Virus record (IMG/VR): IMGVR_UViG_3300042905_003448
Location: 1 to 24,137 of that record
Strand: one strand, 5' to 3'
Source: a virus
DNA: 24,137 bases
The notes under the pieces were generated by a model. That model had not been told where the DNA came from. It ran no database searches and saw only the letters and a list, made by a program, of their open reading frames with translations. The position numbers were made by a program, and so were the translations under genes. Shown here one piece after another: positions 5,696 through 22,458 of this stretch. How positions within the stretch are numbered: the first letter of the stretch is position 1; each line of letters starts with the position of its first letter.

Positions 5696-6865
5696 TTACT
5701 TGGCTGTGAGCCAAGCGGACGGGCTACGGACGGCAAACTCTGGCCGGTACACCATGGCACCGAACAGGCTGTCGAACGTCATGATGTAGGTGAACTGCTT
5801 CGGATCGTAGGAGATCATGAAGCGGATCGGGATGCCCCGGTAGTAGGCCATCGATGCCTGAACACCGACGGAAGGCGGCGGCAGTTCGAGCGGACGATAG
5901 GCGACTGCGAATGCACGTCGGTGGAACAGGATATTGTGGTAGCGGAACTTGCCCGCATTGCCACCTGTGCCTGTTTCCATAGGCACGTCCAGGTCCCAAT
6001 CAACATTCACGCCGAATGTCGTATTGATGCGGGCAGACGCACGAACGCCAGCCGCGATGCCTTCACCGACGGACGTTTGGGCCGTCCACTGGGTATCTGT
6101 GATGATCTTGGAGAAGGTTGACGGGCGAACCAGCAGAAACATGTTCTGGGTGTCGTCTGTCGGAGCCTTGGCTTCCGTCAGGTTCTGCCACATCTGGGCC
6201 AGAACCGGAATCGAGAGGATGTGTGTGGTCGAACTGTCGGTGTCGACCGGAGCATTACCCTTACCGGCAAAACCGGCCCATTCCGCGTCGGACATGCCGG
6301 AAGCGGTCTGGTCGGCTGAGCCCACTGCGCCGTTGGCCTTGAGCAGCGACGTGAGCGAGCCAGTGCCGAAGATACGGTCGTTGGCCGCTACGCCGGTGCT
6401 GATGGTGTTGAAGATCATCCGCTGGAGCGTCCGGTTGACGTAGCTGGTGAACTTCTTGATGGCTTCGTCCACGAACATGCGACGCAGTTCTTCCGGGCGA
6501 GCCGCAAGAGCCTTGTCCATATCGGGAATCACGAAGGCATACGTCGGGTGCTGGTCGAGCGTCAAAAACCGGCGAACGGTCTTGACGGGGTTCAGCGTGA
6601 CGTTGGTTCCGTAGGCGGTTGTCATGTTGGTGACATCGCCGGTGGAATCCGGGAAGTTAATTTCGATGGTCTTGCCCTGATAGGCCGAGTTCGACGGATC
6701 GATGTCGGTCATCACAAGGTCAAGGAACTTATTCGGGCCAACCAGTGCTTCCTGAGCCTGCTGGAAGGCCGAAATGATGTTGCCAAAAAGCGAGTCGTAA
6801 CCGTTGGATGAAGGAGTTGAGCCATTCCAGCCAAACTGCCTTACACCCGGATCATAAATACCCAT
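5696..6865 (-). CDS. Major capsid protein
   Basis: A 389-residue protein immediately downstream of the scaffold gene. It forms the icosahedral shell, and its HK97-type fold is suggested by the order of elements: an N-terminal arm (GNIISAFQQAQEALVGPNKFL), a Tyr/Phe-rich E-loop-like region (TYAFVIPDMDKALAARPEELRR), a long spine-like helix (FVDEAIKKFTSYVNRTLQRMIF), and a C-terminal signature KFRYHNILFHRRAFAVAYRPLELPPP. A strand with a conserved R/H-rich FHR-Afala-RPL pattern is common near the end of capsid proteins of scaffold-dependent phages. There is no N-terminal delta domain, which agrees with a separate scaffold gene. AAGGGG lies about 12 bases upstream of the ATG. This is one of the firmest structural calls in the window. 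Confidence 0.85.
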   Translation of the reverse strand: MGIYDPGVRQFGWNGSTPSSNGYDSLFGNIISAFQQAQEALVGPNKFLDLVMTDIDPSNSAYQGKTIEINFPDSTGDVTNMTTAYGTNVTLNPVKTVRRFLTLDQHPTYAFVIPDMDKALAARPEELRRMFVDEAIKKFTSYVNRTLQRMIFNTISTGVAANDRIFGTGSLTSLLKANGAVGSADQTASGMSDAEWAGFAGKGNAPVDTDSSTTHILSIPVLAQMWQNLTEAKAPTDDTQNMFLLVRPSTFSKIITDTQWTAQTSVGEGIAAGVRASARINTTFGVNVDWDLDVPMETGTGGNAGKFRYHNILFHRRAFAVAYRPLELPPPSVGVQASMAYYRGIPIRFMISYDPKQFTYIMTFDSLFGAMVYRPEFAVRSPSAWLTAK

Positions 6866-7793: not shown

Positions 7794-7809
7794 ACTGGTC
7801 AATACCAGT
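7794..7809 (-). promoter_or_regulatory. Intergenic dyad, copy C, upstream of scaffold gene
   Basis: This is a perfect inverted repeat, ACTGGT-CAAT-ACCAGT on the plus strand. In minus sense it contains the core GTATTGACC followed by AGTACACTT, identical over that tail to the copy at 22443. It lies in the 56-base gap between the end of the 1500-aa gene and the scaffold start, 38 bases from the ATG. The block it precedes is scaffold, capsid, connector and tail. Possible roles are a phage-specific promoter element, a repressor or stoperator site, or an RNA hairpin used for processing or translation control. Confidence 0.55.
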
Positions 7810-7811
7810 TA

Positions 7812-10800
7812 TCAAAATGGAACGCGACCATCGTAATACGGACTGCTTTCGGCTGTGGGGTATTGCTCGGCGATTTCGTCGGGCGACAAGCCTCGCATGG
7901 GGACTGCAATAGCCTTTTTATTGCGGCCCTTTTTAGGCTCCAGATAGACCAAGCCGTTGTCGTAGTCCTGCGACTTGACTACATGTATTTCTCCTTTGTA
8001 AAGAACTTCATCGCCGGGCTTTTTGCTGGTAGAAACAAAATGCTCCTGATCGTCTTTGGCGTTGGCTTTCAGGATGCTCTGGTCGGCGGGAATCGACACA
8101 ACGCCGTAATCTTCTCCGTCTTCCAGCACATAGCTTCCGTAAGTCAGCTCATTGATGACCGATTTTGGCAGGTCGAGATCGTCTTCCGTGCCGGCGGCAA
8201 GCACGCCCTTGAAGGTAAATTCTGCTTCGTGGCCTTTGCCGCCCAGCTCGATTGTTTCGCCGGGCATCAGGTGTTCGAGATCGACTTCGGTTTTACCTTT
8301 GGTGGTTTTTGTATTAAGCACCTGCTTGGAAAATTTCTCGGCCTGCGAGTTTTTCTTTGCTAACTTTGGTATCATTTGGGCTTCCCGTCTAATGGCTTCC
8401 CAAAACTCATTGACACCATCGCCTTCTCGCAAAATACCCATCTCAATTAAGGTAGCGATGTGCTGATCTGGCGCTGAGGCACTCTTGTTATTTCTGTAGA
8501 GCTTTGCAAGCAGTCCAGGCGAAAGCGTTTCCGCCCCGTCATAATCGCCACCGGGATTCCTCATTAATGATGGCGCCAATATTCCGGTTCCAGACAAATA
8601 TTCCAGTATGCCTCCTGGCGGTACATTCTTTAGGCCGCTTGACCCGTTTCCTGATTTTGACGAACTGCCAGTGGGCTTACTGGTCGTTGTTTTTACTGGC
8701 ATTGCAGGCATCTCTGCTGCTGGCTGTGTGTAGGCGTTTGCTATATCCTGTGGGTTTGCTGTCTGAGGCTGTGCGGGCTGGTCGAATACCGATGTTTGGC
8801 CTTCAAGTGGGTTGTATCGGCCTGCTCTTGCGGCCTGGTCAAGTGCGGTGTCCTGGTCGAACATGGAAGATGTCGTTCTGCCTGCACCTATACCGGGCTG
8901 TTCTGGCTCCTTGAGAGAGAATGGCGTTTCTGTAGGCTTGTCGATTTGATTTGCGAGTAAATCAGGGTAATCGTTGAGTACATTTGGCGGAACGGGCCTG
9001 CCTTCGGCAAGTGCGGCCGTAACCTGCTCTCGATGCCCTTCAGGCGTTCCAGTTCCCAGTGCCCTTGTTTGAATCTGAAGCCAGAGAAAACCGTCAATCT
9101 GATTGTTTTCGATCAGGCTGATTACTTCCTTTGCATTTTGTATTCTGGCCCGTTTTTCGGCGGTCATTCTGCCTTTGCTGTATTGTGCAATCTGAGCGTT
9201 ATAATCGTCTGCGACTGACTGTGCGGCAGATTGCCATTTGGCTTGCCCTTCAGGTGTTTGCAAATACTCTTCCTTGCTCATTTGCCACAATGGCTTACCT
9301 GTTTCTGTAGGCGTCGCATTTTCAAGCACCTGCTCCTGAATCTGTTCGGGGGTGGGAGAAACGGGAGTGTTCTGCTGTTTGTTGCGTCGAGAGAGCCTGT
9401 TTGAAATAAGAACCGGGCCGGATTCTGGCGGCGGGACATAGGGCTCTTCGGGCGATGGCAATGCTGCTTGTCGTGCTGCTTCGATCTGGGCGAGATTTGC
9501 TGCTTCGAGTGCCTGGTCAGGCGTCATTTCCAGCGATTTTTTCCACGGAACGACACTCGTAGGCAATTCGTTACCTTGACGGGCAAGCTGGTTGTAGCTG
9601 TTGCTTGCCATGTTTTGGTAAACCGGATTGTCGGGATCTTGCTCCAGCAATGCACCTGCAAATCCGGCTTGATTCTGCACTTTGGCCTGGTCGAACTGGT
9701 TGTATTTGGCCCCAATCGATTGCGATGCCTGCTGATTCTTTACAAAGTCGCGAAGTGCATTCATGTAGCCATACGGCTGACCCGTTGCCGGATCGATGGC
9801 ATTTGCTGTCGCCGCAATGCTGTTAATATCGCTGGTCAGATTCAGGTTTTCGTCGCCCTTGTCAATTAGTAGTTCCCGGCCAAACTTCTTGCTCATGTCG
9901 AAGCTGAAAATGTTTTCAATGCCGAGGTTTTCCGCTTCAGGATTGGCGTAGTTCTGCTGGTGTTTGGCAAAAACATCGGCAACTGTTTTTTCAGCGATTG
10001 CGTTGATTGCTGCTCGCTTTTGGCTGCGGGATAACTTGGGATCGATCTGCAAAAGCTCGGGCGGAGCGTTTTCGATCAGTTGTTTTACCCACTCGTCTTT
10101 CGTTTGCTGGCCACGGTCGTAAATGTAGTTTTCTGCGTTAAAGAGCCGTGTTTCGGCGGTTCTTTCGGTATAGGGTGAGCCTGATTCAAGCCTGGTGACT
10201 GGCTGGCCCTTGGAGTCGGTGGTTTCGTACTGATTAAGCTCGCCCTGTTTAGCAGGCTCAATACCGCTGCGCAGAAGATGAAGTGATTCATTGCGGGATC
10301 GGAAATCGCCGAACAGATTGGCAATGGAATTGGCGTACTGCTGAATATTTTTGTCAACCGCCGGGGCTTGATTGATTTCTTCAAGCGGCTTGCCTGTAAA
10401 AAGGGCGTTCAGCTTCTGGATTGCTTCAGGATTAGTGTCTGCTTTTGCTGCCCATTTGTCTGCTTCCTGTTCTGCAAACCTTCTTTTTTCAGCTTTAGGC
10501 ACCTGACCAAGATGTTCGTTGACAGTCTGGCCGGGTCGGATTGTGCCCTGATTTTCCCACGGAACTGGCACGTTAAATTCTCGAAAGCCTTTTACATCTT
10601 TCAGGTTTTTGGCGTGCTGGCCTGACTGCTTGTTCCAGCCTTCGATTGCGTCGGGCGTAACACCTGTCGGCATACTTCCCAGAAACGGTTTATTCTTGCT
10701 GGTATCCAGTATGCCTTGCGGGTCTGACTGCTCGTAGAAATCCCTTGCCAGTTTCTCGGCTTCTGTGGCATTTCCTTCCGCTTTCAGCGTGTTCTGCTTG

Positions 10801-12314
10801 TGCAGGCTTTGTGCGAGACTTGTAAGGCGAGTGGCATTTGCCATCAATGCCTTTTTGGTTTTGGGATCTGCTTCAGACGCTGCCATTTCAAGGAAGTGAT
10901 CAGCAAGTGCGGCGGCGCCCATAATCCGGTCGTCGCCTTCATTCCCCTCTGCACCCCTGGTTTTTTTACGGGTGTAACGGGTCATGTCATCCGTATCTTT
11001 GGGCGGGCTGTCTCCCGACGCGGCTATGACCGTTGACTTGCTGCCGAATTTGCTGAGTGCAACCTGCTTTTTAATCTGTTCGACCTTGTGTGCGGGCATA
11101 TCATCAGGCACAAAATCGAGATCGTCGAAATTCGGCAATTCGGCGTTTTGGGCTGTTTTGACGATGTGATCTTCAGCCAATACACCAGACTTGCCTCGGC
11201 CGAACTCAGCGATGATTTTGTCTGAAAGCTGCGATTCTATTTTTCGACGCTCGACGCCTGCCCGGTCGTCTTCAATCTGACCGGCGGGCTTGTTTTCGGC
11301 CTTCTGCTCGGAATACCTGACTGGCTGAGGTGGAATTGCCTGCTTTTCCTGCACGTATCGCCACTCGCGACTTTTGCTGGCTTGTGCGGGTGCTTCCAGT
11401 TGTTTTGCCTGTATCTCCTGCTCCAGCATGTTTCGTTCGGGAGACGGCGGCGGATTTTCCTTGCGTACAGTGACTCTTGGGACACCGCCGAAAAGGTTTC
11501 CGGTATTGGGCGTTGTCAGCCCGCCGGAGCTTTGAGGGCCAGGCTTGAATCCTCCGCCTGTGGGTGACTTGGGTTTGCGTGGGCCTTTGGAGGTCGGCCC
11601 GGTTGGCCCGGCTGTTGGGGGTGGTGCAGGGGGCTCTTGCGGCGGGTTTGGTGGTCGTCGCCATGCAGAGCCAGTCCAGACGCGGCCTTTCTGCTGCTGC
11701 CACGATTGGCCGGAGACATCCTGAAAGAATCGTCGGCGGTATTGCTGATCGGCCGTGCTATGGGCCTGTTTGGGGTCGATGTAGTCGCCGAAAAACTCGG
11801 GTGTACCCTGAAGCCTTTGGCCCGACTCGACCTGCTGCACATAGCTTTCGGCTGTTTTTTTGTCGCCGGATCGCCATGCCTTGTAGGGCCGTTTGTCGAG
11901 TGCCGCTACCTGATAGCCATAATCCTGAAGGTATTTAACTTTGGCGTCGAAGCCCTTGTAGGTTCCGCCCGAGGTTTTGTAGGTATTGGCCCAGTGCCGG
12001 TTGAGCCCTTGCGGGCTGGGCGGCTTGCCCGGATCGATGGCGGTGAAGTCGCCCACGTCGGCGGCTTTTCGCCACTGGGTTTTGCCTTGTTTGTCCTGAT
12101 AGGCGACATGAATCTCGTCGTTGTCAATCAGCAGGTCGTAGCTTTCCTTGCCCCTTGAGACGCGGAGATTGGCTACATTGGCAGATTTGGAAAAGTCGTG
12201 GTGGCCCTGCTGGTAATTATCGACCGACTTCCGCCACTTGCGTGGGGATGTCGCCTTGATTACCGCACTGTTGACTTTGCCGTATGCCCGCCCTGCTGAT
12301 CGAAAGAAGCCCAT
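7812..12314 (-). CDS. Giant 1500-aa phage protein of unknown function
   Basis: This is the longest gene in the window, starting MGFFRSAGRAYGKVNS 24 bases after the 383-aa gene. Residues 1-215 are basic and look folded, with Trp-rich segments (TQWRKAADVGDF, QSWQQQKGRVWTGSAWRR). Residues 220-295 are a Pro/Gly/Lys-rich linker. Residues 300 to about 1200 are long, polar, helix-prone and rich in Gln, Ala, Asn and Lys. A second Ser/Gly/Thr/Pro linker follows before a folded C-terminal part. The last 69 residues begin KPGDEVLYKGEIHVV, an SH3/KOW-like beta pattern. No enzyme motif, signal peptide or membrane helix is seen. Size and position next to the scaffold suit an internal, possibly ejected virion protein, but no family is recognised. 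The sequence looks less G-rich than the terminase and capsid genes. Confidence 0.75.
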   Translation of the reverse strand: MGFFRSAGRAYGKVNSAVIKATSPRKWRKSVDNYQQGHHDFSKSANVANLRVSRGKESYDLLIDNDEIHVAYQDKQGKTQWRKAADVGDFTAIDPGKPPSPQGLNRHWANTYKTSGGTYKGFDAKVKYLQDYGYQVAALDKRPYKAWRSGDKKTAESYVQQVESGQRLQGTPEFFGDYIDPKQAHSTADQQYRRRFFQDVSGQSWQQQKGRVWTGSAWRRPPNPPQEPPAPPPTAGPTGPTSKGPRKPKSPTGGGFKPGPQSSGGLTTPNTGNLFGGVPRVTVRKENPPPSPERNMLEQEIQAKQLEAPAQASKSREWRYVQEKQAIPPQPVRYSEQKAENKPAGQIEDDRAGVERRKIESQLSDKIIAEFGRGKSGVLAEDHIVKTAQNAELPNFDDLDFVPDDMPAHKVEQIKKQVALSKFGSKSTVIAASGDSPPKDTDDMTRYTRKKTRGAEGNEGDDRIMGAAALADHFLEMAASEADPKTKKALMANATRLTSLAQSLHKQNTLKAEGNATEAEKLARDFYEQSDPQGILDTSKNKPFLGSMPTGVTPDAIEGWNKQSGQHAKNLKDVKGFREFNVPVPWENQGTIRPGQTVNEHLGQVPKAEKRRFAEQEADKWAAKADTNPEAIQKLNALFTGKPLEEINQAPAVDKNIQQYANSIANLFGDFRSRNESLHLLRSGIEPAKQGELNQYETTDSKGQPVTRLESGSPYTERTAETRLFNAENYIYDRGQQTKDEWVKQLIENAPPELLQIDPKLSRSQKRAAINAIAEKTVADVFAKHQQNYANPEAENLGIENIFSFDMSKKFGRELLIDKGDENLNLTSDINSIAATANAIDPATGQPYGYMNALRDFVKNQQASQSIGAKYNQFDQAKVQNQAGFAGALLEQDPDNPVYQNMASNSYNQLARQGNELPTSVVPWKKSLEMTPDQALEAANLAQIEAARQAALPSPEEPYVPPPESGPVLISNRLSRRNKQQNTPVSPTPEQIQEQVLENATPTETGKPLWQMSKEEYLQTPEGQAKWQSAAQSVADDYNAQIAQYSKGRMTAEKRARIQNAKEVISLIENNQIDGFLWLQIQTRALGTGTPEGHREQVTAALAEGRPVPPNVLNDYPDLLANQIDKPTETPFSLKEPEQPGIGAGRTTSSMFDQDTALDQAARAGRYNPLEGQTSVFDQPAQPQTANPQDIANAYTQPAAEMPAMPVKTTTSKPTGSSSKSGNGSSGLKNVPPGGILEYLSGTGILAPSLMRNPGGDYDGAETLSPGLLAKLYRNNKSASAPDQHIATLIEMGILREGDGVNEFWEAIRREAQMIPKLAKKNSQAEKFSKQVLNTKTTKGKTEVDLEHLMPGETIELGGKGHEAEFTFKGVLAAGTEDDLDLPKSVINELTYGSYVLEDGEDYGVVSIPADQSILKANAKDDQEHFVSTSKKPGDEVLYKGEIHVVKSQDYDNGLVYLEPKKGRNKKAIAVPMRGLSPDEIAEQYPTAESSPYYDGRVPF

Positions 12315-12338
12315 TGCATAAATCCCTGATAATCAGCC

Positions 12339-13490
12339 TTATCTCAATCCTGTGACCATTTGCCAAGGCTTTGCTTTGTTTAGCAGCCAGTTCATTGGCT
12401 TAACCAGATTTGGGTTAGGGTTTGCAAACGTCGGATCTGCCGGTCGGGCCTGATTTGGCATCGGCGGCAAATCTGGCGTTGCAGGTGCCGAGTCCTGAAC
12501 CGGCAAGCCTGCTGGCTGCGGGGCTAAAGCCAAAGGACTGGGCTGCATTGGTGCTGCCGGCTGATTTAACATGGGCGAGACCTGCGGAGGCTGCTCAACC
12601 AGATTCACGGGAGGCGGAGCAGGCGTCGAAGGCTTCACTCTGTCCATGTATTCCTGATTGGCCTTCTGCATCCCTGCTGCGATCGGGCTTGATGCACGCC
12701 ACTGGTCAATTCCGGCTGAAGTAACGCCTCTCATGCGTGCTGCACGGGCGATGCGGGCGTTCATTGTTGAACTGTTCACTCCGCCGCTGGCACTGCGATT
12801 CAGGACTTCAGGGCTATTGGGGGCATACATGGCGTTGCCACCCGTGACGGCCCGGAAATCGTCAGAAGCCATGCCATCTGCTCTGGCGACTTCGGGGAGC
12901 AAATTGGGCTGCGATCCCGGCGTGAAGCCTCTGGCTTCGTATGGGCTGACTGGCACCATGCGGTTGCCATCCATCTTCATGCCTGGAATGTTGAGCGGTC
13001 TCATTGCCGTGCTGGCGTCGGGTGATTGACCCATCAGCACGTTTCTGGCTGCATTTGGATTGATAAGCTGCGGCCTGCCGGGAGCCGGGGCTTGTCTTGG
13101 CGAGGCGAATCGTGCCGCACTTTCAGCCTGTGCAAACGAGTTCATGCCCCGAGCAACACCGACCGGGCCTTGCAAATCAGGGCTGGAATAGGGATTTCGG
13201 CCAGTTCCCAAAGAAGGCTGCGTTTCAGGATTTGACTGAATGCCTGCGATTACGCCTTGGAGAGCCCGGCCACCGGGTGATTGTGTGGGTCTTGGCAGGC
13301 TGGTCGTACCAAACATTGCCGGTCGCTGTGCCATCATGTTCGGACTGCCTGGTGCAGTAGGCGTCATGCTTGCCTGATTGCCCATCGGATTGTTGTTCAT
13401 CGGTGCTTTGGTCGTTGGGTTGCGGAACGAGTAAGCCGCTGTGCCTAACGACCCTGAAACACCCTGCCACGGACGACCATAACCTGCCAT
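12339..13490 (-). CDS. Pro/Asn/Met/Ala-rich low-complexity protein, unknown
   Basis: A 383-residue protein starting MAGYGRPWQGVSG with AAGGG about 7 bases before the ATG, and the intergenic dyad at 13508-13523 just upstream. It is almost wholly disordered in appearance: Pro, Asn, Met, Gln, Ser and Ala dominate, and only one short helix-prone segment is seen (MNARIARAARMRGV). The C-terminal third has PPPVN, PAPPP and repeated PAxPxP-like stretches. It is followed by the 1500-aa gene with a short gap, and both share the Pro/Gln-rich style, so they probably work together, perhaps as virion-interior or cargo proteins. No known domain is recognised. Confidence 0.65.
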   Translation of the reverse strand: MAGYGRPWQGVSGSLGTAAYSFRNPTTKAPMNNNPMGNQASMTPTAPGSPNMMAQRPAMFGTTSLPRPTQSPGGRALQGVIAGIQSNPETQPSLGTGRNPYSSPDLQGPVGVARGMNSFAQAESAARFASPRQAPAPGRPQLINPNAARNVLMGQSPDASTAMRPLNIPGMKMDGNRMVPVSPYEARGFTPGSQPNLLPEVARADGMASDDFRAVTGGNAMYAPNSPEVLNRSASGGVNSSTMNARIARAARMRGVTSAGIDQWRASSPIAAGMQKANQEYMDRVKPSTPAPPPVNLVEQPPQVSPMLNQPAAPMQPSPLALAPQPAGLPVQDSAPATPDLPPMPNQARPADPTFANPNPNLVKPMNWLLNKAKPWQMVTGLR

Positions 13491-13507: not shown

Positions 13508-13523
13508 ACTGGTTAATACCATT
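13508..13523 (-). promoter_or_regulatory. Intergenic dyad, copy B, upstream of 383-aa gene
   Basis: On the plus strand this is ACTGGT-TAAT-ACCATT, a dyad with one mismatch against the perfect copy at 7794. In minus sense the core is GTATTAACCAGTA followed by TAAAAAGGG, so the site abuts the ribosome binding site and lies 17 bases from the ATG at 13490. It follows a possible terminator, which suggests a transcription-unit boundary. Confidence 0.5.
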
Positions 13524-13573: not shown

Positions 13574-13684
13574 TCAGCAGTAGCCTTTTTTCTTTTCCAT
13601 CTTCTGAGTCTTTTTGGGCTCTTTGTGTTCCTGAGCCTTGGTTTTGCCTTTTTCCTGCTTCGGATCCGGTTTCTTGCCTGCCAT
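13574..13684 (-). CDS. 36-aa Lys-rich microprotein
   Basis: A short frame with ATG at 13684 and TGA at 13574-13576, preceded by a near-perfect ribosome binding site (AAAGGAGAACGACA then ATG). The product starts MAGKKPDPKQEKGKTKAQEH and ends MEKKKGYC. About one third of the residues are lysine, with Glu, Gln and Pro making up most of the rest, so it should be disordered and basic. It lies between the papain-like peptidase and the possible terminator. Small basic proteins of this kind occur in late operons of many phages and may bind nucleic acid, but no family is recognised. The good Shine-Dalgarno site and the snug fit between genes are the evidence that it is real. Confidence 0.6.
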   Translation of the reverse strand: MAGKKPDPKQEKGKTKAQEHKEPKKTQKMEKKKGYC

Positions 13685-13696
13685 TGTCGTTCTCCT

Positions 13697-14494
13697 TTAA
13701 ATTCTGACTGGTGGAAGATTGGCTGGGTCAACTTCCGCCGCAAATACACCATACGCATCAAAACCACTGCCTCGCAGGTTACGCTCTGCGATCCAGCAAT
13801 AGCCCTGATTTCCCCACTGTTCACCCCAACTGTTTCTCATGCCGATCAGCCAGCCTGATTTACCTTGTTTCATGGCGAACCCGCCCGATACGGCGTGATT
13901 GTGCCAGCCTGATCGGTTTTGGGGCACGCCTTCTGCGTCAAGCTGATTGAAACCGCCGTTGACCGGCACGCTGAAATTAAATGGAATGCGAAGCTGTGCC
14001 GCTACGCATAAATCGTTGAAGTTTTGCAGCCTGTAGCCAATTTCAATTTTGAATCTCTTCGCATTTTCACGGGCATTTTCATTGATTCGACGGGGATTGA
14101 TCACCCCGTGTGGCACCAGTGCATCGTCACAAGTGCCGCTCTTTTGCAAGAGTGTTAAAGCCTCTGCAATTGAGCTGCCCCGGTCGATACCGTTGCATAG
14201 ATCAGCATAAACCAGCCAAGCGGATAGGGGCACATAGCCAAGCCCTGCGATATAACGGGCATCTTCCAGGCTGGAAGCGGCTGCATGACCATTACAGGCT
14301 CCGTAAGAGCCCTGATTTTTGATTGAAACCTTGTAATCGGGGTTTGATCGATAGTCGAACTCTTGCCATTTATGCTCGGGCACATCGGGCAGAACGCCAC
14401 GAACGGGCAGGATTAAATCAACGGGCGGCTCGTTATTGGCCAGAGAGACAATCTGGCCGTTAGGCAATACCCATTTATCCAGATTTTCGATCAT
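13697..14494 (-). CDS. Papain-like (C1 family) cysteine peptidase
   Basis: A 265-residue protein with the active-site pattern of C1 peptidases. IKNQGSYGACNGHA holds the oxyanion Gln61 and the nucleophile Cys67 (papain QGSCGSCWAF). WHNHAVSGG holds His200, followed by AV as in papain. MRNSWGEQWGNQGYCWI holds Asn221 in the canonical NSWG..WG..GY block. The spacing and length match a mature peptidase domain with a short N-terminal extension (about 50 residues, PVRGVLPDVPEHKW) rather than a full inhibitory propeptide. There is no signal peptide. Its start overlaps the secreted thioredoxin-like gene by 4 bases. The target is unknown: it could cleave virion proteins encoded next door, act at the host envelope during lysis or entry, or process host proteins. 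The peptidase identity is strong, the role inferred. Confidence 0.85.
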   Translation of the reverse strand: MIENLDKWVLPNGQIVSLANNEPPVDLILPVRGVLPDVPEHKWQEFDYRSNPDYKVSIKNQGSYGACNGHAAASSLEDARYIAGLGYVPLSAWLVYADLCNGIDRGSSIAEALTLLQKSGTCDDALVPHGVINPRRINENARENAKRFKIEIGYRLQNFNDLCVAAQLRIPFNFSVPVNGGFNQLDAEGVPQNRSGWHNHAVSGGFAMKQGKSGWLIGMRNSWGEQWGNQGYCWIAERNLRGSGFDAYGVFAAEVDPANLPPVRI

Positions 14495-14988
14495 TTCAGC
14501 CCCGCTGCGATCAGTTTGAGTTCTTCAATCGACGTTACTTTCTTGACCTGCACCAGCTTGCCGCTCTTGTCTTGCAAAATCACCGTTGGCAATCCGGTCG
14601 AGGTAACGTCTCCTCGAAAATTCAGAAGGTCGATGTCCCTTTCCGTGTCGGCATACGTTCGGAACTGTACCCCTGCATCTTTCAGCAGGCCGCGTACTAC
14701 GCCGTTTGTTCGCCATTGCGCCTGTTCCGGGTCTGATGGATCAACGATCAGCGAAAACCAAGCCACATCCTTAACTACAGGCTTATTGTCAGGAGGCGGT
14801 ACAGGTGGCGGAGTTGGCGGCGGTGTCGGGTTGCCGTCGCCAAGAACCACCACCTGACCTGTCTGCTTGCCTACAAAGAACGTGAACCCGTGATGGCTGA
14901 ACACCACCCGTTCCTCAGTCGATGGCTGTACCACCACTGAGGGAATGGATGATTGTGCAAGCAAAACTGCCGCAAGTAGGCTGATCAT
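14491..14988 (-). CDS. Secreted protein with Pro-rich linker and thioredoxin-like C-terminal domain
   Basis: A 165-residue protein starting MISLLAAVLLAQSSIPS, a short signal-like hydrophobic segment with no lipobox Cys. Residues 25-50 form a small beta hairpin region (RVVFSHHGFTFFVGKQTGQVVVLGDG). Residues 53-70 are a Pro-rich linker (PTPPPTPPPVPPP). Residues 73-165 look like a thioredoxin fold: strand AWFSLIVDP, a helix (VVRGLLKDAG), strand VQFRTYA, then GLPTVILQDKSGKLV, where the Pro matches the cis-proline loop, and a final helix (IEELKLIAAGLK). No CxxC is present, so redox activity is unlikely; a binding or scaffold role is more probable. It overlaps both the small membrane protein upstream and the peptidase downstream by 4 bases, so all three are probably co-translated. 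The fold call is from pattern only. Confidence 0.6.
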   Translation of the reverse strand: MISLLAAVLLAQSSIPSVVVQPSTEERVVFSHHGFTFFVGKQTGQVVVLGDGNPTPPPTPPPVPPPDNKPVVKDVAWFSLIVDPSDPEQAQWRTNGVVRGLLKDAGVQFRTYADTERDIDLLNFRGDVTSTGLPTVILQDKSGKLVQVKKVTSIEELKLIAAGLK

Positions 14989-15197
14989 CGTTGATACACC
15001 GCCTTCAGGTGCGATTCATGCCGCTTGAGGAATCTGGCAATCTCATCGTCCGTGATTGTCACCATCTCTCCCTTTTCGTCCGCTTCCCTGACTTTTTGCA
15101 AAATCAATGGAATGACGAGCTTGATAATGACCGGAGCAAGCAACTGGATAATGGGCCAGATCAGCGCAAACGGCACGAATCGCACGAGATTTTTCAT
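14985..15197 (-). CDS. Small membrane protein (70 aa)
   Basis: The product has a hydrophobic N-terminal half (residues 5-36, FVPFALIWPIIQLLAPVIIK and on), long enough for one kinked or two short membrane helices with Pro residues inside, and a charged C-terminal half (READEKGEMVTITDDEIARF). AGGGA precedes the ATG. It overlaps the genes on both sides by 4 bases. The form, short hydrophobic head with charged cytosolic tail, suits a holin, antiholin or other envelope-acting phage protein. No family is recognised. Confidence 0.6.
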   Translation of the reverse strand: MKNLVRFVPFALIWPIIQLLAPVIIKLVIPLILQKVREADEKGEMVTITDDEIARFLKRHESHLKAVYQR

Positions 15198-15406
15198 TCT
15201 TTTTTCCCTGATTCAACCTTCTGAGGCGGAGCGGTCAAGATCAGCAGCGTTTGAGGCTGCCGATTTTTGCGCAGGAAGCCCGCCAACGGATTCGGTCGAT
15301 AGATTTCACTTGCAACCGCATAGACGGCCACTGTGGGCGAAATTTGAACGACTTGCGGGCATTGTCCAGTGGTACACACCTGAGTCACTAATACTTCCAA
15401 CGGCAC
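15194..15406 (-). CDS. Small protein of unknown function (70 aa, GTG start)
   Basis: The frame starts with GTG at 15406, with AGGTG about six bases upstream, and overlaps the next gene by 4 bases. The product opens MPLEVLVTQVCTTGQCPQVV, with two Cys residues five apart, followed by a strand-rich segment (ISPTVAVYAVASEIY) and a basic, Pro-containing C-terminal part ending ESGKKE. There is no clear membrane helix or signal peptide. It lies inside the small membrane-protein run and its neighbours suggest a shared late role, but the sequence itself does not indicate a function. Confidence 0.5.
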   Translation of the reverse strand: MPLEVLVTQVCTTGQCPQVVQISPTVAVYAVASEIYRPNPLAGFLRKNRQPQTLLILTAPPQKVESGKKE

Positions 15407-15437
15407 AGATCACCTAGCCTTTCCGGGAAAGAGGAGT

Positions 15438-15456
15438 TACCGAGAATTCCTCGGTA
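15438..15456 (-). repeat. Perfect inverted repeat in the 57-base gap
   Basis: TACCGAG and CTCGGTA form seven perfect base pairs around a 5-base loop, in the only sizeable gap inside the small membrane-protein run. There is no T-run after it in minus sense, so it is not a classic terminator. It lies upstream of the GTG-started 70-aa gene and could be an mRNA-processing or protein-binding hairpin. It does not share the GTATTRACC core of the dyads elsewhere. Confidence 0.4.
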
Positions 15457-15463
15457 GCTGAAA

Positions 15464-15823
15464 TCAAACGCCAATATCGCCCTTATCGGGCACACCAAGT
15501 TTTGCAGCCTCAATTCGAAGCGCAAAGTTTTCATTTTCGAGCCTGAGCCGTTCGTTCTGTTGCTCAAGCTCTAATTTCATCCGGTAATATTCACGACGAT
15601 TTCTCATTGTGAAATACCCTATCGTTGCCGTAACGGCTGGAATGAAAAGATCCATAACGTGATGCCCGAAGCCTTCAAGGCCGCTTGAATACTTGCCCTG
15701 AGCGGCTGTAACAACAGCCGAAGCCAGTTCAAGCGTGCCGATTACAATCCAAGCCGGCCCCAATAGCCGATCCCCTATGGAATCTATGAAACTTCTGGTT
15801 GAATCGTGATCTAAATCGAGCAT
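15464..15823 (-). CDS. Two-helix membrane protein with C-terminal coiled coil, holin candidate
   Basis: A 119-residue protein. Residues 20-43 (LLGPAWIVIGTLELASAVVT) and 54-73 (HHVMDLFIPAVTATIGYFTM) are probable membrane helices. Residues 76-110 are charged and form a clear coiled coil (REYYRMKLELEQQNERLRLE). Two membrane helices plus a charged coiled tail is common among small phage holins and similar hole-forming proteins, which permeabilise the inner membrane at lysis. It has AAGGGA upstream of the ATG and starts 2 bases after the preceding gene stops. No holin family is recognised with certainty, and a spanin-like or superinfection-exclusion role is possible. Confidence 0.55.
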   Translation of the reverse strand: MLDLDHDSTRSFIDSIGDRLLGPAWIVIGTLELASAVVTAAQGKYSSGLEGFGHHVMDLFIPAVTATIGYFTMRNRREYYRMKLELEQQNERLRLENENFALRIEAAKLGVPDKGDIGV

Positions 15824-15825
15824 CC

Positions 15826-16077
15826 TTAGTTCCCTTGACGAATCATTCGTTTACCGAGCATACGTCCTGTGATGAGTGCAACCGCCAGCGCAAAAACCGG
15901 CGAAAGTCTGCTGCTCCAAGGCTCTGCAAGCCAAAGCGAGTGATTTTGCAGAATGGGCAGAATCACAAGCTCTAAAGCCGCCTGCGCGATGTTGCTGGTA
16001 ATGACAATCGTGCGAAGCTCTCGCCAGTTGATATAGCCCCAAATCGAGGGCAACTGATTTATCTCAGGTTCGGGCAT
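15826..16077 (-). CDS. Small membrane protein (83 aa)
   Basis: The ATG overlaps the stop of the preceding gene in a TAATG arrangement, with AGGGG eight bases upstream. Residues about 22-43 (RTIVITSNIAQAALELVILP) and 57-75 (LSPVFALAVALITGRMLG) are probable membrane segments, and the C-terminal tail is basic (KRMIRQGN). It sits between two other small membrane proteins in a tight run, so a joint holin/antiholin-like function is a fair inference. There is no recognised family. Confidence 0.55.
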   Translation of the reverse strand: MPEPEINQLPSIWGYINWRELRTIVITSNIAQAALELVILPILQNHSLWLAEPWSSRLSPVFALAVALITGRMLGKRMIRQGN

Positions 16078-16283
16078 TACTTTTCCCCTTTAGGCACCGT
16101 GAAACAATGACCACACACCGCGCCCACACCGAACGAAAAGGCCAGCGTTTTCTGATTCACTGCCCAAATCGCTTCTGACCACGTTTGCCCGCCTGTCTGC
16201 CACTTGTAGAGGTCAACAATCAGCAGCACAAAGGCCACAACCATTAGGAACGTAAAATTGCGGGCGGCATTGGTAAATGTCAT
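16077..16283 (-). CDS. Small membrane protein (68 aa)
   Basis: Starts with ATG at 16283 in a 4-base overlap with the upstream accessory gene. Residues 10-28 (FTFLMVVAFVLLIVDLYKW) are a strong membrane helix, and 46-63 (TLAFSFGVGAVCGHCFTV) a second, weaker one containing two Cys. The N-terminus and C-terminus (VPKGEK) are short and basic. It is the first gene of the membrane-protein run that follows the adhesion genes. Size and topology fit a holin-like protein, but nothing distinguishes a lysis role from another envelope function. Confidence 0.55.
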   Translation of the reverse strand: MTFTNAARNFTFLMVVAFVLLIVDLYKWQTGGQTWSEAIWAVNQKTLAFSFGVGAVCGHCFTVPKGEK

Positions 16284-16879
16284 GGTAATGGCCCGTTGGC
16301 TGTACCGTTGCCGTTCGGCGGTGCCGGTGGTGGTGGCGGATAGCCCCAGCCTAATCGTGGCATGGCATCTTCAAACTGTTGCAGTGTCGGCACGAGTCGA
16401 ACGCCTGAAACAACGTCATTTTCAATCTGGTAGGACGTTTTGTAACAGGCTGATCGAAACTCTCTGGCCTGCTTTGATTCAGCCGCCCACGCTGCATCTG
16501 AATCGTCTGTCCAGTCGCCAGCAGTATCGATATTGTCGTAATCTCGCGGGGCAACTGATTTATCCAGATAATCTCTGAGATACTTGGCAAATACAGGCCG
16601 GATTGATCGCAGGTAGCTAAGCTGCTCCTGTTGCGTCAGGCTCACCACCTGCCAGCTTTGATTGACTTTCCCCTGCTGGGCGTCAAATGTCAGCGTTTCG
16701 ACTGCTTTTTGCGTCTGTTCGTTAATCGTCGGTTTTGCGGCCGGGTTGAACGGATACCATCCATAACGGGCCAGTTCCGAAGGTGGCAGAGAGTAGAAAT
16801 TGCTGATATTGCGGTAATCCCGAGGCAGGTTTGCCGGGGCACCGATATTACCATTGACGACGAGGCAGTATTGCGGCAT
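16280..16879 (-). CDS. Tail-fibre accessory-like protein with N-terminal GWYP motif
   Basis: A 199-residue protein starting MPQYCLVVNGNIGAPANLPR, three bases after the lectin gene ends. The stretch LPRDYRNISNFYSLPPSELARYGWYPF is typical of the N-terminal region of small phage proteins encoded next to tail fibres and associated with fibre assembly or host binding. Residues 95-115 are helical (QLSYLRSIRPVFAKYLRDYL). The C-terminus is Pro/Gly/Asn-rich (PPPPPAPPNGNG). It follows the fibre and lectin genes, so an accessory or chaperone role for them is likely. The exact family is not certain. Confidence 0.55.
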   Translation of the reverse strand: MPQYCLVVNGNIGAPANLPRDYRNISNFYSLPPSELARYGWYPFNPAAKPTINEQTQKAVETLTFDAQQGKVNQSWQVVSLTQQEQLSYLRSIRPVFAKYLRDYLDKSVAPRDYDNIDTAGDWTDDSDAAWAAESKQAREFRSACYKTSYQIENDVVSGVRLVPTLQQFEDAMPRLGWGYPPPPPAPPNGNGTANGPLP

Positions 16880-16882
16880 GTG

Positions 16883-18952
16883 TTAGAAGCCCCATTTGGT
16901 TTTAAGGTAATTGCGAACACTTAGCCGGTCTGTATCGCTTAAGGCAGAAGGGTAAATGATGATTTCGGCGATGTTTCCATCCATTGAGAATTGAGATGAT
17001 GAATAAAAACCAATTCGATCTGGAGTAAATGACGTTGACCCAACATTTGTAGAAGTTCCGCTTGAATCAGTTGAATAGGCAGTTGCATTTGTGCCATCGT
17101 ATTTGAATGTGGAATAATCCCATTGCGTGCCATTGGTTCGTGGGTCGTTTGCGTGCTGCGATCCGCCGCCATTCATTTCGATCCGGCTGTTACTTGCAGC
17201 AAAAAGATAGTTTGGCGAACCAGTTGATTTCCCAAGAATTACAGAGCCATTTACGGTGTCATTATTTTTGTAAACGACAAATATTGTGAAGTTGCCTGTG
17301 ATCGAATAACCAAGGCTTAGCCACTGACTCCCATTGAACGCCACTGCCCCCAGCCCATTCCTGCCTTTTGCCGGTGGCAACCATGTTGGCCGATTGGCAA
17401 GCGTTGTCTGTGTGGCGTGCCGGTTGTTGCCAGATAGATCATTCCACTGGTAAACGGCATCTCCATCTTTAATGACGTTTGTTGCCCCTGCGTCTGTATA
17501 AAGCGACGAAGTTTGCGGGGCACTGAGCCATAAAGCCGCACCCGAGACGGGCAGGGTTGTAAATGGGTTGTAAAGGTCAGGAAAAGCGGCTGTGGGTGGT
17601 GTAAAGCTGGCCAAGTAGCGGGCTATGCCTTTTGTCAAGCGAAAGTCGTCCAGATTGCCGTTCAGCTTTAACATTGTGGCCATCGACCCGATTATTAATG
17701 TACCAGTTGCCGAAAAGTCATTGTTCCAGCCTGTTGACGATGTAATGGTCTGAGAAATACCATCAACGAACATATAGATTGTGGAACTACTGCGAACTGC
17801 TGCAATGTGATACCACTGATTAAGGTTGGGTGTCCAATTAAAGTAAGCAAAGACCGATCCGTTGCCATGCCGCCCTAGCCGCAGTCGTTTTGTTCCACTT
17901 GAATCTTCAAGCGCAAACCACCACATTGTAGTGCTTGCAGCTGATTCGCTTGATTGAATATTGGCAATCCCCATGATCTGATTCGTGCCCGGTAATGCCA
18001 AAAATCGCACAAATGTTTCAACTGTAAAGTCACCAGTGCCAACCGCAAAAGCAGCGTTGCTACCTGCATTTAATTGGTCTCCCGTTCCATCAAGGCTTAG
18101 TGAGCCTGTCCCAAACTTAACCACAGATGTGCTAACTTTTGCATCGCCAGCCGCCGTTATATTTAACGCATTCGGCCCACTATCTACAAATGTCGTGCTG
18201 CCGTTTGTCCCGTCCATGTGCAGAAGCAGCGAAACTTTATCGATATACGGGTCTTTGTAGATACCATCCGCCCAGCTTAATACCTGTGCCTTTGTCGTGT
18301 TGTCATGATATTGGTTGTAAACCAGAAATTCAGCCAGATCCACTTTAGCATAGCCGTTATAAACCCTGCCAATCTGCCCAATGACAGGATTAGCATTAAC
18401 TGGCCCGCTTGTTGAGTTTGTAACACCGTTGACTTCAATCGTGACCGTTGTGCCTGTCCGCCTTGCAACAATCTCGCAGAATAAGCCGTTTGTGATAGCA
18501 TTATTGTTGCCATAAACAATGTCGCCCGAGCCGGTAAACCAATACGTTCCCTGCAAGTAAGTGTTCAGCGAATTTAGGCTGGCTTCTGCCTCGCCAAAAA
18601 AGCCGCCGCCGTTACCATCCGCCTCCCGCATAAACCCGATCCAGTAGATTGTAAAATCCCCGGTCAGGGTCATACTTGCGAAATTGATAATATCATCGAA
18701 ACCATCAAAAGAGACGGTCTGAAAGCCGCTGCCCTGATTGGTTTTCAGGATCGGCTGCTTTGTGCCGGTGGCCTGCGTGGCGTGATTTGTGCCGCCTGAT
18801 TTGTCGTTAAACTGAGTGACATTTGTTCCAGAGGTGACAACATCGGTTGCGGAATACCACCGCTGAAGGCCGGTAAGCTGCGATGGGGTAAAAGCACCAC
18901 CACCACCGCCGCCGGTTGTTGCCGTTTTGCGTTGTAAGAGCTTGGCAATCAT
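16883..18952 (-). CDS. Three-domain LamG/concanavalin-like receptor-binding protein
   Basis: 689 residues from the preferred ATG at 18952, which overlaps the fibre stop as ATGA and has AGGG eight bases upstream; a TTG at 18982 would add ten residues. Three lectin-like modules are visible. The first (about 20-230) contains GLQRWYSATDV, DKSGGTNHATQAT and a SFDGFDD strand. The central one (about 235-460) is LamG-like: VSLLLHMDGTNGSTTFVDSG, FGTGSLSLDGTGDQL, DFTVETFVRF and NQWYHIAAVR. The third (about 470-689) repeats the layout of the first (ALWLSA, WNDLSGNNRHATQ, AEIIIYPSALSDTDR) and ends YLKTKWGF. Such domains bind glycans on host surfaces and are common at phage tail tips. It is a strong candidate for host adsorption. 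A short Gly run (GGGGGG) precedes the first module. Confidence 0.8.
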   Translation of the reverse strand: MIAKLLQRKTATTGGGGGGAFTPSQLTGLQRWYSATDVVTSGTNVTQFNDKSGGTNHATQATGTKQPILKTNQGSGFQTVSFDGFDDIINFASMTLTGDFTIYWIGFMREADGNGGGFFGEAEASLNSLNTYLQGTYWFTGSGDIVYGNNNAITNGLFCEIVARRTGTTVTIEVNGVTNSTSGPVNANPVIGQIGRVYNGYAKVDLAEFLVYNQYHDNTTKAQVLSWADGIYKDPYIDKVSLLLHMDGTNGSTTFVDSGPNALNITAAGDAKVSTSVVKFGTGSLSLDGTGDQLNAGSNAAFAVGTGDFTVETFVRFLALPGTNQIMGIANIQSSESAASTTMWWFALEDSSGTKRLRLGRHGNGSVFAYFNWTPNLNQWYHIAAVRSSSTIYMFVDGISQTITSSTGWNNDFSATGTLIIGSMATMLKLNGNLDDFRLTKGIARYLASFTPPTAAFPDLYNPFTTLPVSGAALWLSAPQTSSLYTDAGATNVIKDGDAVYQWNDLSGNNRHATQTTLANRPTWLPPAKGRNGLGAVAFNGSQWLSLGYSITGNFTIFVVYKNNDTVNGSVILGKSTGSPNYLFAASNSRIEMNGGGSQHANDPRTNGTQWDYSTFKYDGTNATAYSTDSSGTSTNVGSTSFTPDRIGFYSSSQFSMDGNIAEIIIYPSALSDTDRLSVRNYLKTKWGF

Positions 18953-20121
18953 TGATTTTGCCCTGATACAAACGCTTTCCAAGACGTTCCGCCATCGACC
19001 GTATAAAAGGCAAACGTGTCACTCTTGCCGTTGGTCGAAGTGAGCGTTGGGGCTGTGCCTGATGGCCATTTGATCGAAGCAGGCCACGTCACTGCCCGAG
19101 CCGTGCCATCGGCTGTAAATTCCAGCGTGAAAGCCGACGCCATCAAACTGGTAGGCACATTCGAGATTGTCAGTGTGGTTATGGCTGCATTCAGGCTGAC
19201 TTTGAAGAAATTACTGCCTGAAAGGTCGAGCGTGAGCGTGCCGCTGCTGATCGCTGGGCTGGTGTAAGATTCCCGCCATGACTGAAAACGTGGCTTGTCC
19301 AGAATGTTACTGTTGTAATTCTGCTGGCCGGTGAATGTGTTTGTCGAAAGCGTTGCGTAGGTTGATGCTGCTGAGGCTGTCGTCAGGTAGGTTGAAAGGC
19401 TGGCAATCGTGGCATAAGTAGCCGATGCGTTACTGGTCGTCAATCCGTCTGTGATGCCGTATCCAGCAAGTGTTGTCGGCTTGCCGGTCAGGTTAGCATA
19501 GCTAAAACTGGCCGATGGCAAATAAGTTGCCGCCGCATTGGCTGTCGTCAGATACAGGCTTAAATTCGGCGTTCCTGTAATGTTGCTGTAGGTTAAGCAG
19601 GAAGCTGTAATATAGCCCGATGGGTTCGTCTGCAAATAATAGGTGCTTGCCGCTGTGGTACTAAGCAGGTAAACGCCTAGATTCGGCGTGCCGGTCAGGT
19701 CAGAATAAGCTCCTGACGTTGCCACCGTGGCAAATGTCGGTTTACCCGTAATGTTTGACCACGTAAGGCAGGAAACCGTCGCATAGTTGCCGATGGGCTG
19801 ATACGTCGATGCTGCCGTTGAACTCAACAGATATACGTTCAGATTCGGCAGGCCGGTTAAATCGCTGTAGAGGCCGCTGGTGGCGACATTGGCGAACGTT
19901 GGCTTGCCGGTCAGGTTCGCCCAAGTGTTATTGGCAATCGTCTGATAAACGGTCAGATTCGGCGTGCCGGGAAGATTGCTGTAGTTGATTGAAACATTGC
20001 CCGTCATGTTATTGACGGCTGTAACCATTGCCGTGCGATCATCCTGAAGGATCGTTACGGAAAGGGGCGGGATGACGATTTGAGCCGGTGAATTTGCCAG
20101 TACAACAATCGGGTCAGGCAC
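18949..20121 (-). CDS. Tail fibre protein with tandem repeats
   Basis: 390 residues from GTG 20121, preferred because GGGAGG lies about 5 bases upstream; a TTG at 20145 is in frame but has no such site. After a short N-terminal head, residues 45-260 consist of repeated fibre units (YSDLTGTPNL, NLTGKPTF, STTAASTY, YGITDG) typical of trimeric phage tail fibres. Two long units are nearly identical. The C-terminal domain (about 275-390) matches a frequent phage fibre tip: LDLSGSNFFKVSLNA, TLEFTADGTARAVTWPASIK, WPSGTAPTLTS, FYTVDGGTSWKAF. It likely forms the shaft and tip of a host-contacting fibre. It overlaps the BppU_N-like gene upstream and the lectin gene downstream, so the three are probably translated together. 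Confidence 0.8.
   Translation of the reverse strand: MPDPIVVLANSPAQIVIPPLSVTILQDDRTAMVTAVNNMTGNVSINYSNLPGTPNLTVYQTIANNTWANLTGKPTFANVATSGLYSDLTGLPNLNVYLLSSTAASTYQPIGNYATVSCLTWSNITGKPTFATVATSGAYSDLTGTPNLGVYLLSTTAASTYYLQTNPSGYITASCLTYSNITGTPNLSLYLTTANAAATYLPSASFSYANLTGKPTTLAGYGITDGLTTSNASATYATIASLSTYLTTASAASTYATLSTNTFTGQQNYNSNILDKPRFQSWRESYTSPAISSGTLTLDLSGSNFFKVSLNAAITTLTISNVPTSLMASAFTLEFTADGTARAVTWPASIKWPSGTAPTLTSTNGKSDTFAFYTVDGGTSWKAFVSGQNQ
19591..19923 (-). repeat. Two near-identical tail-fibre repeat units (54 and 57 codons)
   Basis: Unit 1 (19923-19762) and unit 2 (19761-19591) begin WANLTGKPTF and WSNITGKPTF, continue with VATSGxYSDLTGxPNL and VYLLSxTAASTY, and end CLT. Unit 2 is three codons longer, with a YLQTNPSGYITAS insertion. 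Partial third and fourth units follow (YSNITGTPNL, YANLTGKPTT). This suggests recent internal duplication, with potential for length change by recombination. Confidence 0.7.
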
Positions 20122-20482
20122 TGCAACCTCCCTTGCACTTGGCAATGGCTGGGCCCGCCAGAATAGTTCGCTTGTAGTTGGCTGCGTCGGTCATGTCCAG
20201 TTCCCAGCCGTGGCAATCTTCAGGCACATTGGCCGTAAGTTCTCGTGAAAAGGCCGGGGCTATGGTGCCATTAGCTGCACTAATCACCGAAACATTGCCT
20301 GTAAATACTTGCCCGTTTACCAGCAAATTGGCTTCAAACTGGTATCCCGTGATGTTTACGGGCACATTGGTCGTGATGTTGTTGGCCGTAACCGGTGACG
20401 TGATCTGGAAGGCCAGCGTGACGTTGTTGCCGGGATAAAACTCGATGGGATATGTTGCGGCGGTTTGTTTCCACTTACTCAT
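20114..20482 (-). CDS. BppU_N-like beta-sandwich protein
   Basis: A 122-residue protein with ATG at 20482, overlapping the preceding stop by 4 bases. The order FYPGNNVTLAFQIT, VPVNITGYQFEANLLVNG, a middle strand block and a final WELDMTDAANYKRTILAGPAI is the usual pattern for the N-terminal module of baseplate upper proteins and related phage sandwich domains (G-x-x-x-L-x-F strand, then TGY-x-F-x-A, then a Y-x-x-x-I-x-x-G end strand). It is followed by a C-terminal CKGGC. It may connect the fibre or lectin to the virion. The same type of fold appears to be fused to the head-tail adaptor elsewhere in the window. Confidence 0.6.
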   Translation of the reverse strand: MSKWKQTAATYPIEFYPGNNVTLAFQITSPVTANNITTNVPVNITGYQFEANLLVNGQVFTGNVSVISAANGTIAPAFSRELTANVPEDCHGWELDMTDAANYKRTILAGPAIAKCKGGCSA

Positions 20483-22396: not shown

Positions 22397-22414
22397 GCGT
22401 GCGCCCTTCAAGAG

Positions 22415-22432
22415 TATCGGTTAATACCGATA
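22415..22432 (-). promoter_or_regulatory. Intergenic dyad, copy A1, upstream of portal gene
   Basis: A perfect seven-base inverted repeat TATCGGT-TAAT-ACCGATA. In minus sense the core is GTATTAACC. It lies 18 bases from the portal ATG, directly before the ribosome binding site. It shares the core and spacer with the other copies but has CGGT/ACCG arms in place of CTGGT/ACCAG, which suggests covariation that keeps the stem. Confidence 0.55.
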
Positions 22433-22442
22433 TAAAAAGTGT

Positions 22443-22458
22443 ACTGGTTAATACATGC
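22443..22458 (-). promoter_or_regulatory. Intergenic element, copy A2, upstream of portal gene
   Basis: The plus strand has ACTGGTTAATACAT. The left arm and core match the other copies but the right arm is degraded. In minus sense GTATTAACCAGTACACTT matches the scaffold-gene copy over the last thirteen bases except one A/G in the core. With copy A1 it forms a tandem pair in the 65-base gap between the terminase and portal genes. Confidence 0.5.

Follow-up and report, generated by a model that had tools for sequence, protein, structure and literature searches.

Two long open reading frames (ORFs) of a virus lie between its gene for a papain-family peptidase and those for scaffold and capsid, and the question raised by this locus is what their products, here called P0002 and P0001, contribute to the phage. 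The DNA analysed (the window) is the virus contig in full and comprises 24137 bases. On its minus strand the gene order starts with TerL and portal, continues with genes for fibre and LamG proteins and a number of small genes, and then reaches the papain-family peptidase, P0002 and P0001; after these come the scaffold-like and capsid proteins, three proteins resembling connectors, one resembling a tail tube and, in the tape-measure position, a Gly-rich protein of 630 residues. Several of these names reflect position and weak family matches only. An earlier note on this DNA had described the pair as two low-complexity proteins covering about a quarter of the window, placed after a peptidase and beside scaffold and capsid genes, and had suggested internal or ejected virion proteins, possibly processed by proteolysis. 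We found both ORFs at the coordinates in Table 1 with ATG starts, together making up 23.5% of the window, behind a peptidase of papain family C1 (Pfam E 8e-13) and ahead of scaffold and capsid. Only 24 bp separated the P0002 stop from the P0001 start. Family searches with the scaffold-like protein gave nothing above noise.

Table 1. Position of the pair, its neighbours and the repeated upstream element in the window.
Feature	Position	Strand	Remarks
Major capsid protein	5696..6865	-	phrog_283 E 2.4e-13; P22 coat match weak, under the Pfam cut-off
Scaffold-like gene, 281 aa	6910..7755	-	named by position; coiled-coil-like N-terminus, conserved C-terminus
Element GTATTGACCAG	7795..7805	-	lies 50 nt ahead of the scaffold gene
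P0001, 1500 aa	7812..12314	-	ATG start; N-terminal region ~1-240, Pro-rich linker, helical-looking core ~440-960, lineage-specific C-terminal part ~960-1500
Part of P0001 roughly matching the region exchanged in L011/L012 (residues after ~305 to stop)	7812..11400	-	boundary in the window inferred by alignment only
P0002, 383 aa	12339..13490	-	ATG start; Pro/Gly/Asn-rich, cysteine-free; central motifs conserved; mosaic in relatives
Element GTATTAACCAG	13509..13519	-	motif start lies 29 nt ahead of the P0002 ORF start
Papain-family cysteine peptidase	13697..14494	-	catalytic residues Q, C, H, N conserved
Element GTATTAACCAG	22444..22454	-	lies 43 nt ahead of the portal ORF

We regard both ORFs as real genes, because homologues were found in other contigs and because the 298 N-terminal codons compared between the P0001 homologues of contigs L011 and L012 gave a dN/dS of 0.10. 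The capsid gene gave 0.11, and the N-terminal part of these homologues is judged to be under purifying selection. By one entropy measure devised for this analysis, the description as low complexity held for P0002, which is probably disordered (low-entropy windows take up 33% of its residues, and 15% are Pro); it did not hold for P0001 (8%). The low-entropy stretches of P0001 were confined to the surroundings of residues 201-300, 901-1000 and 1201-1300; the protein is poor in hydrophobic residues (24%) and mostly of ordinary complexity, with Pro-rich linkers. Cysteine was absent from P0001, from P0002 and from the P0001 homologues of L002, L011 and L012. For P0001 between 11 and 17 cysteines were expected, depending on the gene set, and the larger expectation corresponds to a Poisson probability of 5.5e-8. 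Among the window's other proteins, tape measure, scaffold and capsid had no cysteine either, nor had some other proteins of the relatives, the latter counted on ORFs picked by length without gene calling, so that some spurious frames are included, the 1086-residue ORF of L007 was entered split and some proteins are also present as a shorter second version. The absence of cysteine equally fits any hydrophilic, partly disordered protein.

As the earlier note had reported, no domain was recognised: P0001 and P0002 had no match in Pfam, PHROGs or NCBIfam, and a profile of the P0001 family had none in the PDB. When P0001 was searched whole and by its two ends apart, a check that the earlier note had named, no match was detected among 50,697 phage records, and the last 286 residues found no relative among viral contigs. 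The SH3/KOW-like barrel proposed at the C-terminus of P0001 was not borne out. The last 200 residues had no Pfam match and the last 300 no meaningful PHROG or PDB match, and the AlphaFold2 model of residues 380-1500 reached a mean pLDDT of 38.5, with few, low-confidence strands in that part. The N-terminal model had a mean pLDDT of 40.2. The cores of the P0001 homologues were similar at 24-30%, with scattered invariant residues and no catalytic-looking set among them. In these searches neither protein showed a recognisable head-binding or effector domain or a homologue with known function, and a narrow literature search found no description of the family.

A search with the capsid protein led to the related contigs L002/L003 (one phage), L004, L005/L006, L007, L011 and L012, and to short weak matches only in L008-L010; a connector search added L028 and found the other contigs again. 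P0001 relatives were found only in a few uncultivated siphophage-like contigs, namely L002 (1354 aa), L011 (996 aa) and L012 (940 aa), at 22-30% identity in aligned stretches and E down to 1e-34. Homologues of P0002 were found in L002, L007, L011, L012, L054 and L061. Wherever P0001 homologues were found (window, L002/L003, L011, L012) the placement was constant, between the papain gene and the scaffold. Other large proteins occupied this place in L004, L005/L006 and L007. Profile comparison of the L004/L006-type and L036-type proteins with the P0001 family gave E 0.2-0.3, i.e. no detected homology. Two L007 proteins considered as P0001 homologues were dropped and are treated as positional only: one of 310 residues, compared with the P0001 N-terminus, which gained no support from profile comparison, and one of 1086 residues, for which no homology was shown. 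Analogies drawn below from the L036, L004/L006 and L007 proteins are therefore positional. In a host search of genome contigs, the capsid protein found no relative and the papain protein two distant matches.

In seven loci (L036, L037, L038, L039, L076, L077, L084) the papain gene preceded a related scaffold and capsid, with the pair absent between them, where locus labels, here and in the papain survey described below, were given by BLAST against a reference set made for this analysis (E 1e-4), so that distant counterparts would be missed. The pair is therefore accessory and lies outside the minimal capsid machinery. Together with the papain survey, these loci show it to be inserted at the start of the capsid cluster.

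Comparison of close relatives revealed where these proteins vary. The aligned DNA of L011 and L012 was 95-98% identical and their other shared proteins 91-100% (scaffold 100%, capsids 97%). The alignment had two gaps, one at the 3' end of the P0002-type gene and one reaching from residue 299 of the P0001 homologue to 5 nt before its stop. Across the second gap the cores shared 28% of residues and gave no DNA alignment. We read this as replacement of the C-terminal part of the large protein, to near its stop, by a diverged allele. Bootstrapping of the L012 core, with pairing to the window/L002 versus L011, gave 433, 430 and 137 of 1000 for the three pairings.

A similar pattern was seen among the positional counterparts. 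L005 and L006 were 99.6-99.9% identical in DNA except in the last part of the counterpart (40% identity over 145 residues), which L006 encodes as a single ORF and L005 as two that overlap. L036 and L038, which have no pair, instead contain two large proteins between connector genes, alike in their first ~120 residues, which a protein of L084 also shares. The second of these (819/762 aa, in the virion cluster) was 84% identical over the first ~390-426 residues; beyond this nearly all alignment was lost, to near the stop. Inside the otherwise largely unalignable part, 59 nt around a GGQLAPG motif were 98% identical, and the longer form [FY]SxGGQLAPGxGT occurred in the L036/L038 proteins as well as in the P0001 homologue of L002, at residue 1196 (pairwise E 4e-5). 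L002 and L003 carried one allele (DNA 99.98% identical). A C-terminal difference was thus found in three of the four close pairs compared; the pairwise scan of contigs used only pairs among the matches listed, and the exchanges concern homologues and positional counterparts rather than any close relative of the window. The major capsid gene of L036/L038 (L036 2611-3579, L038 1961-2932) had also been replaced, with 43% protein identity against ~88% in its neighbours. The region therefore recombines in general, and exchange is not unique to the large proteins.

The sequence GTATTRACCAG occurred in exactly three exact copies in the window, counting either strand, each 29-50 nt ahead of an ORF, namely portal, P0002 or scaffold. 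A 13-base version, allowing at most 2 mismatches, matched 7 times in the window against 0.56 expected. In the related record G001 the element preceded the portal, 383-type and scaffold genes with 0, 2 and 1 mismatches, respectively. In G007 (L011) it had 1 mismatch at the portal and 0 at the 383-type gene, and a 12-base version with 2 mismatches lay near the scaffold start. Both records contained it at a few other places too. In G003 and G004 it was not found before these three genes. The distance between the P0002 element and the start codon was unsuited to a plain sigma-70 -35 box; the element may act as a promoter, an operator or at the RNA level. As the element precedes portal, P0002 and scaffold, the P0002/P0001 pair looks like part of a head regulon.

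Two further observations concern the element. Directly after the copy upstream of the portal we noted a perfect inverted repeat, TATCGGT-ATTA-ACCGATA (window 22414-22454, minus strand). A virion RNA polymerase, that is a large cysteine-free injected protein combined with a hairpin-like motif, was considered and dropped on reading of the sequences, as no catalytic-looking set of invariants was seen and as the element differs hardly at all between L011 and L012, although their P0001 cores have been exchanged.

Both the accessory distribution and the exchange would also be expected if P0001 and P0002 were late accessory (moron-type) proteins that remain inside the infected cell and never become part of the virion. 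Integrase genes are present in the related records G004 (L136 2612-3607) and G001 (L127 2098-3222), whose gene content suggests temperate phages and makes a temperate life with cargo genes plausible; the N-terminus of the L136 integrase may resemble integrases of Planctomycetes. We nevertheless consider this explanation improbable, as the pair always came first in the scaffold-capsid unit, the pair shares its element with portal and scaffold, and a consensus scan found no sigma-70-type promoter of the pair's own.

The position next to the scaffold and the common element would likewise suit a structural head assembly factor, a core or secondary scaffold that never reaches the host and whose sequence drifts and recombines fast in the manner of disordered assembly proteins. 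P0001 is also poor in hydrophobic residues and cysteine-free like the scaffold. Against this, related scaffold-capsid pairs exist without P0001, and the C-terminal alleles of L011 and L012 have strongly diverged alongside identical scaffolds and capsids that are 97% identical, which would be hard to explain for a part that fits the capsid. We regard an assembly role as possible, though rather unlikely.

The neighbouring peptidase had been thought a candidate for processing of the pair. Its catalytic residues were well conserved in the papain set (Q 81/81, C 81/81, H 79/81, N 80/81), and Pro-rich linkers separate segments of P0001, as might be expected of a polyprotein cut by this enzyme into internal head proteins. 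The distribution of the gene speaks against such a role. The survey kept the best 80 of 88 papain loci; five of these had less than 1 kb downstream, and among the other 75 a P0002/P0001-type protein or positional counterpart was present in 8 and missing from 67. The papain protein of the window was 88% identical to that of L004, where the neighbouring proteins show no relation to P0001. Moreover, the papain gene accompanied a tail-fibre/LamG block and a signal-peptide-like protein. On these grounds the peptidase is judged to be a portable module and not a dedicated processing enzyme of P0001, the proposed processing by it is not supported, and we hold the polyprotein explanation to be very improbable. 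No prohead protease was recognised in the window.

Within the fibre-LamG-small genes-papain block (window 13697-20145), DNA on the papain side matched L004 and L007 at ~88% identity, and some fibre or small genes matched L037/L039 at up to 92-98%. The capsid genes of these contigs were only 24-57% identical. The block is thus portable and probably follows the host.

The reading as internal or ejected virion proteins is, in our opinion, the best one for the pair, because of the fixed place at the scaffold-capsid cluster, the element and a cysteine-free composition that the tape measure and the scaffold share. We give an even chance to a more specific form of it, in which P0002 and P0001 would form a two-gene accessory unit of the head regulon and P0001 would be a head-associated protein ejected with an exchangeable C-terminal cargo. 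P0001 would then be made late, together with portal, scaffold and capsid, would enter or bind the forming head via its conserved N-terminal region and would leave the head along with the DNA. Its long C-terminal part could be a cargo acting in, or against, the host, and for this reason would be traded among phages by recombination while the N-terminus is retained. The Pro-rich P0002 may help to load P0001.

Accessory or ejected head proteins are familiar from other phages, among them the internal head proteins IPI-IPIII and Alt of T4, and the ejection proteins of P22 and T7. The T4 internal head proteins have anti-host roles. Neither P0001 nor P0002 had a PHROG match at E 0.1, and no homology to these proteins was found. 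Alt is also mentioned in a paper on polyvalent proteins (PMC5512222). According to this paper, phage members of the polyvalent proteins are encoded near late virion genes and thought to be packaged and injected, and the P1 head protein DdrB has ParB-like domains. P0001 resembles the polyvalent or DdrB/DarB-type proteins, as far as described there, in being a large protein encoded among late virion genes, and the P0001/P0002 loci lie near such genes. A sister phage, L036, whose pair of large proteins behaves similarly, has a ParB-like protein in its virion cluster. This protein, of 538 residues, aligned to the C-terminal portion of phrog_21, a family with the annotation portal, head and packaging, at E 4.9e-55, and to ParB-like families weakly (E 0.0026). 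Polyvalent proteins by definition combine, within one chain, at least two recognisable domains whose activities are disparate, whereas P0001 and P0002 had none in Pfam, PHROGs or NCBIfam. The HExxH zincin motif was absent from P0001 and from 14 other proteins examined alongside.

The MuF polymorphic toxins of temperate phages, whose gene lies immediately downstream of the portal (PMC5576092), share with the L011/L012 proteins a conserved N-terminus and an exchangeable C-terminus in a head-cluster protein, and two relatives of the window are likewise temperate by gene content. In contrast to the MuF proteins, which carry the MuF domain at the N-terminus, P0001 and its homologues had no Pfam match to this domain (E up to 0.1 and up to 1, respectively), 7257 bp lay between the portal end and the P0002 start, and in place of a small downstream immunity ORF there were only 56 bp between the P0001 stop and the scaffold start. 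The best reading by analogy is that the pair would work like the P1 Dar/polyvalent or MuF proteins and belongs to none of these groups.

On a wider and tentative view, which we put forward with considerable doubt, such proteins might be the phage-head counterpart of polymorphic effectors. Each capsid lineage would have its own, unrelated carrier N-terminus, and C-terminal cargoes would be exchanged, sometimes across carriers at the [FY]SxGGQLAPGxGT junction, so that the payload brought against host defence would differ from virion to virion. Should the C-terminal parts indeed be payloads delivered by the virion, comparison of close pairs like L011/L012 would be a direct route to new anti-host or anti-defence domains unrecognised by any database, as the payload would begin where the exchange does. 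It would also provide a simple rule by which cargo could be separated from structure among large phage proteins without known function.

Between the papain gene and P0002 we also noticed an ORF of 36 residues (window 13574-13684, minus strand), rich in Lys and Glu and with Cys as the C-terminal residue; similar small ORFs, also ending in Cys, were present at the same place in L002, L007, L011, L012 and L004.
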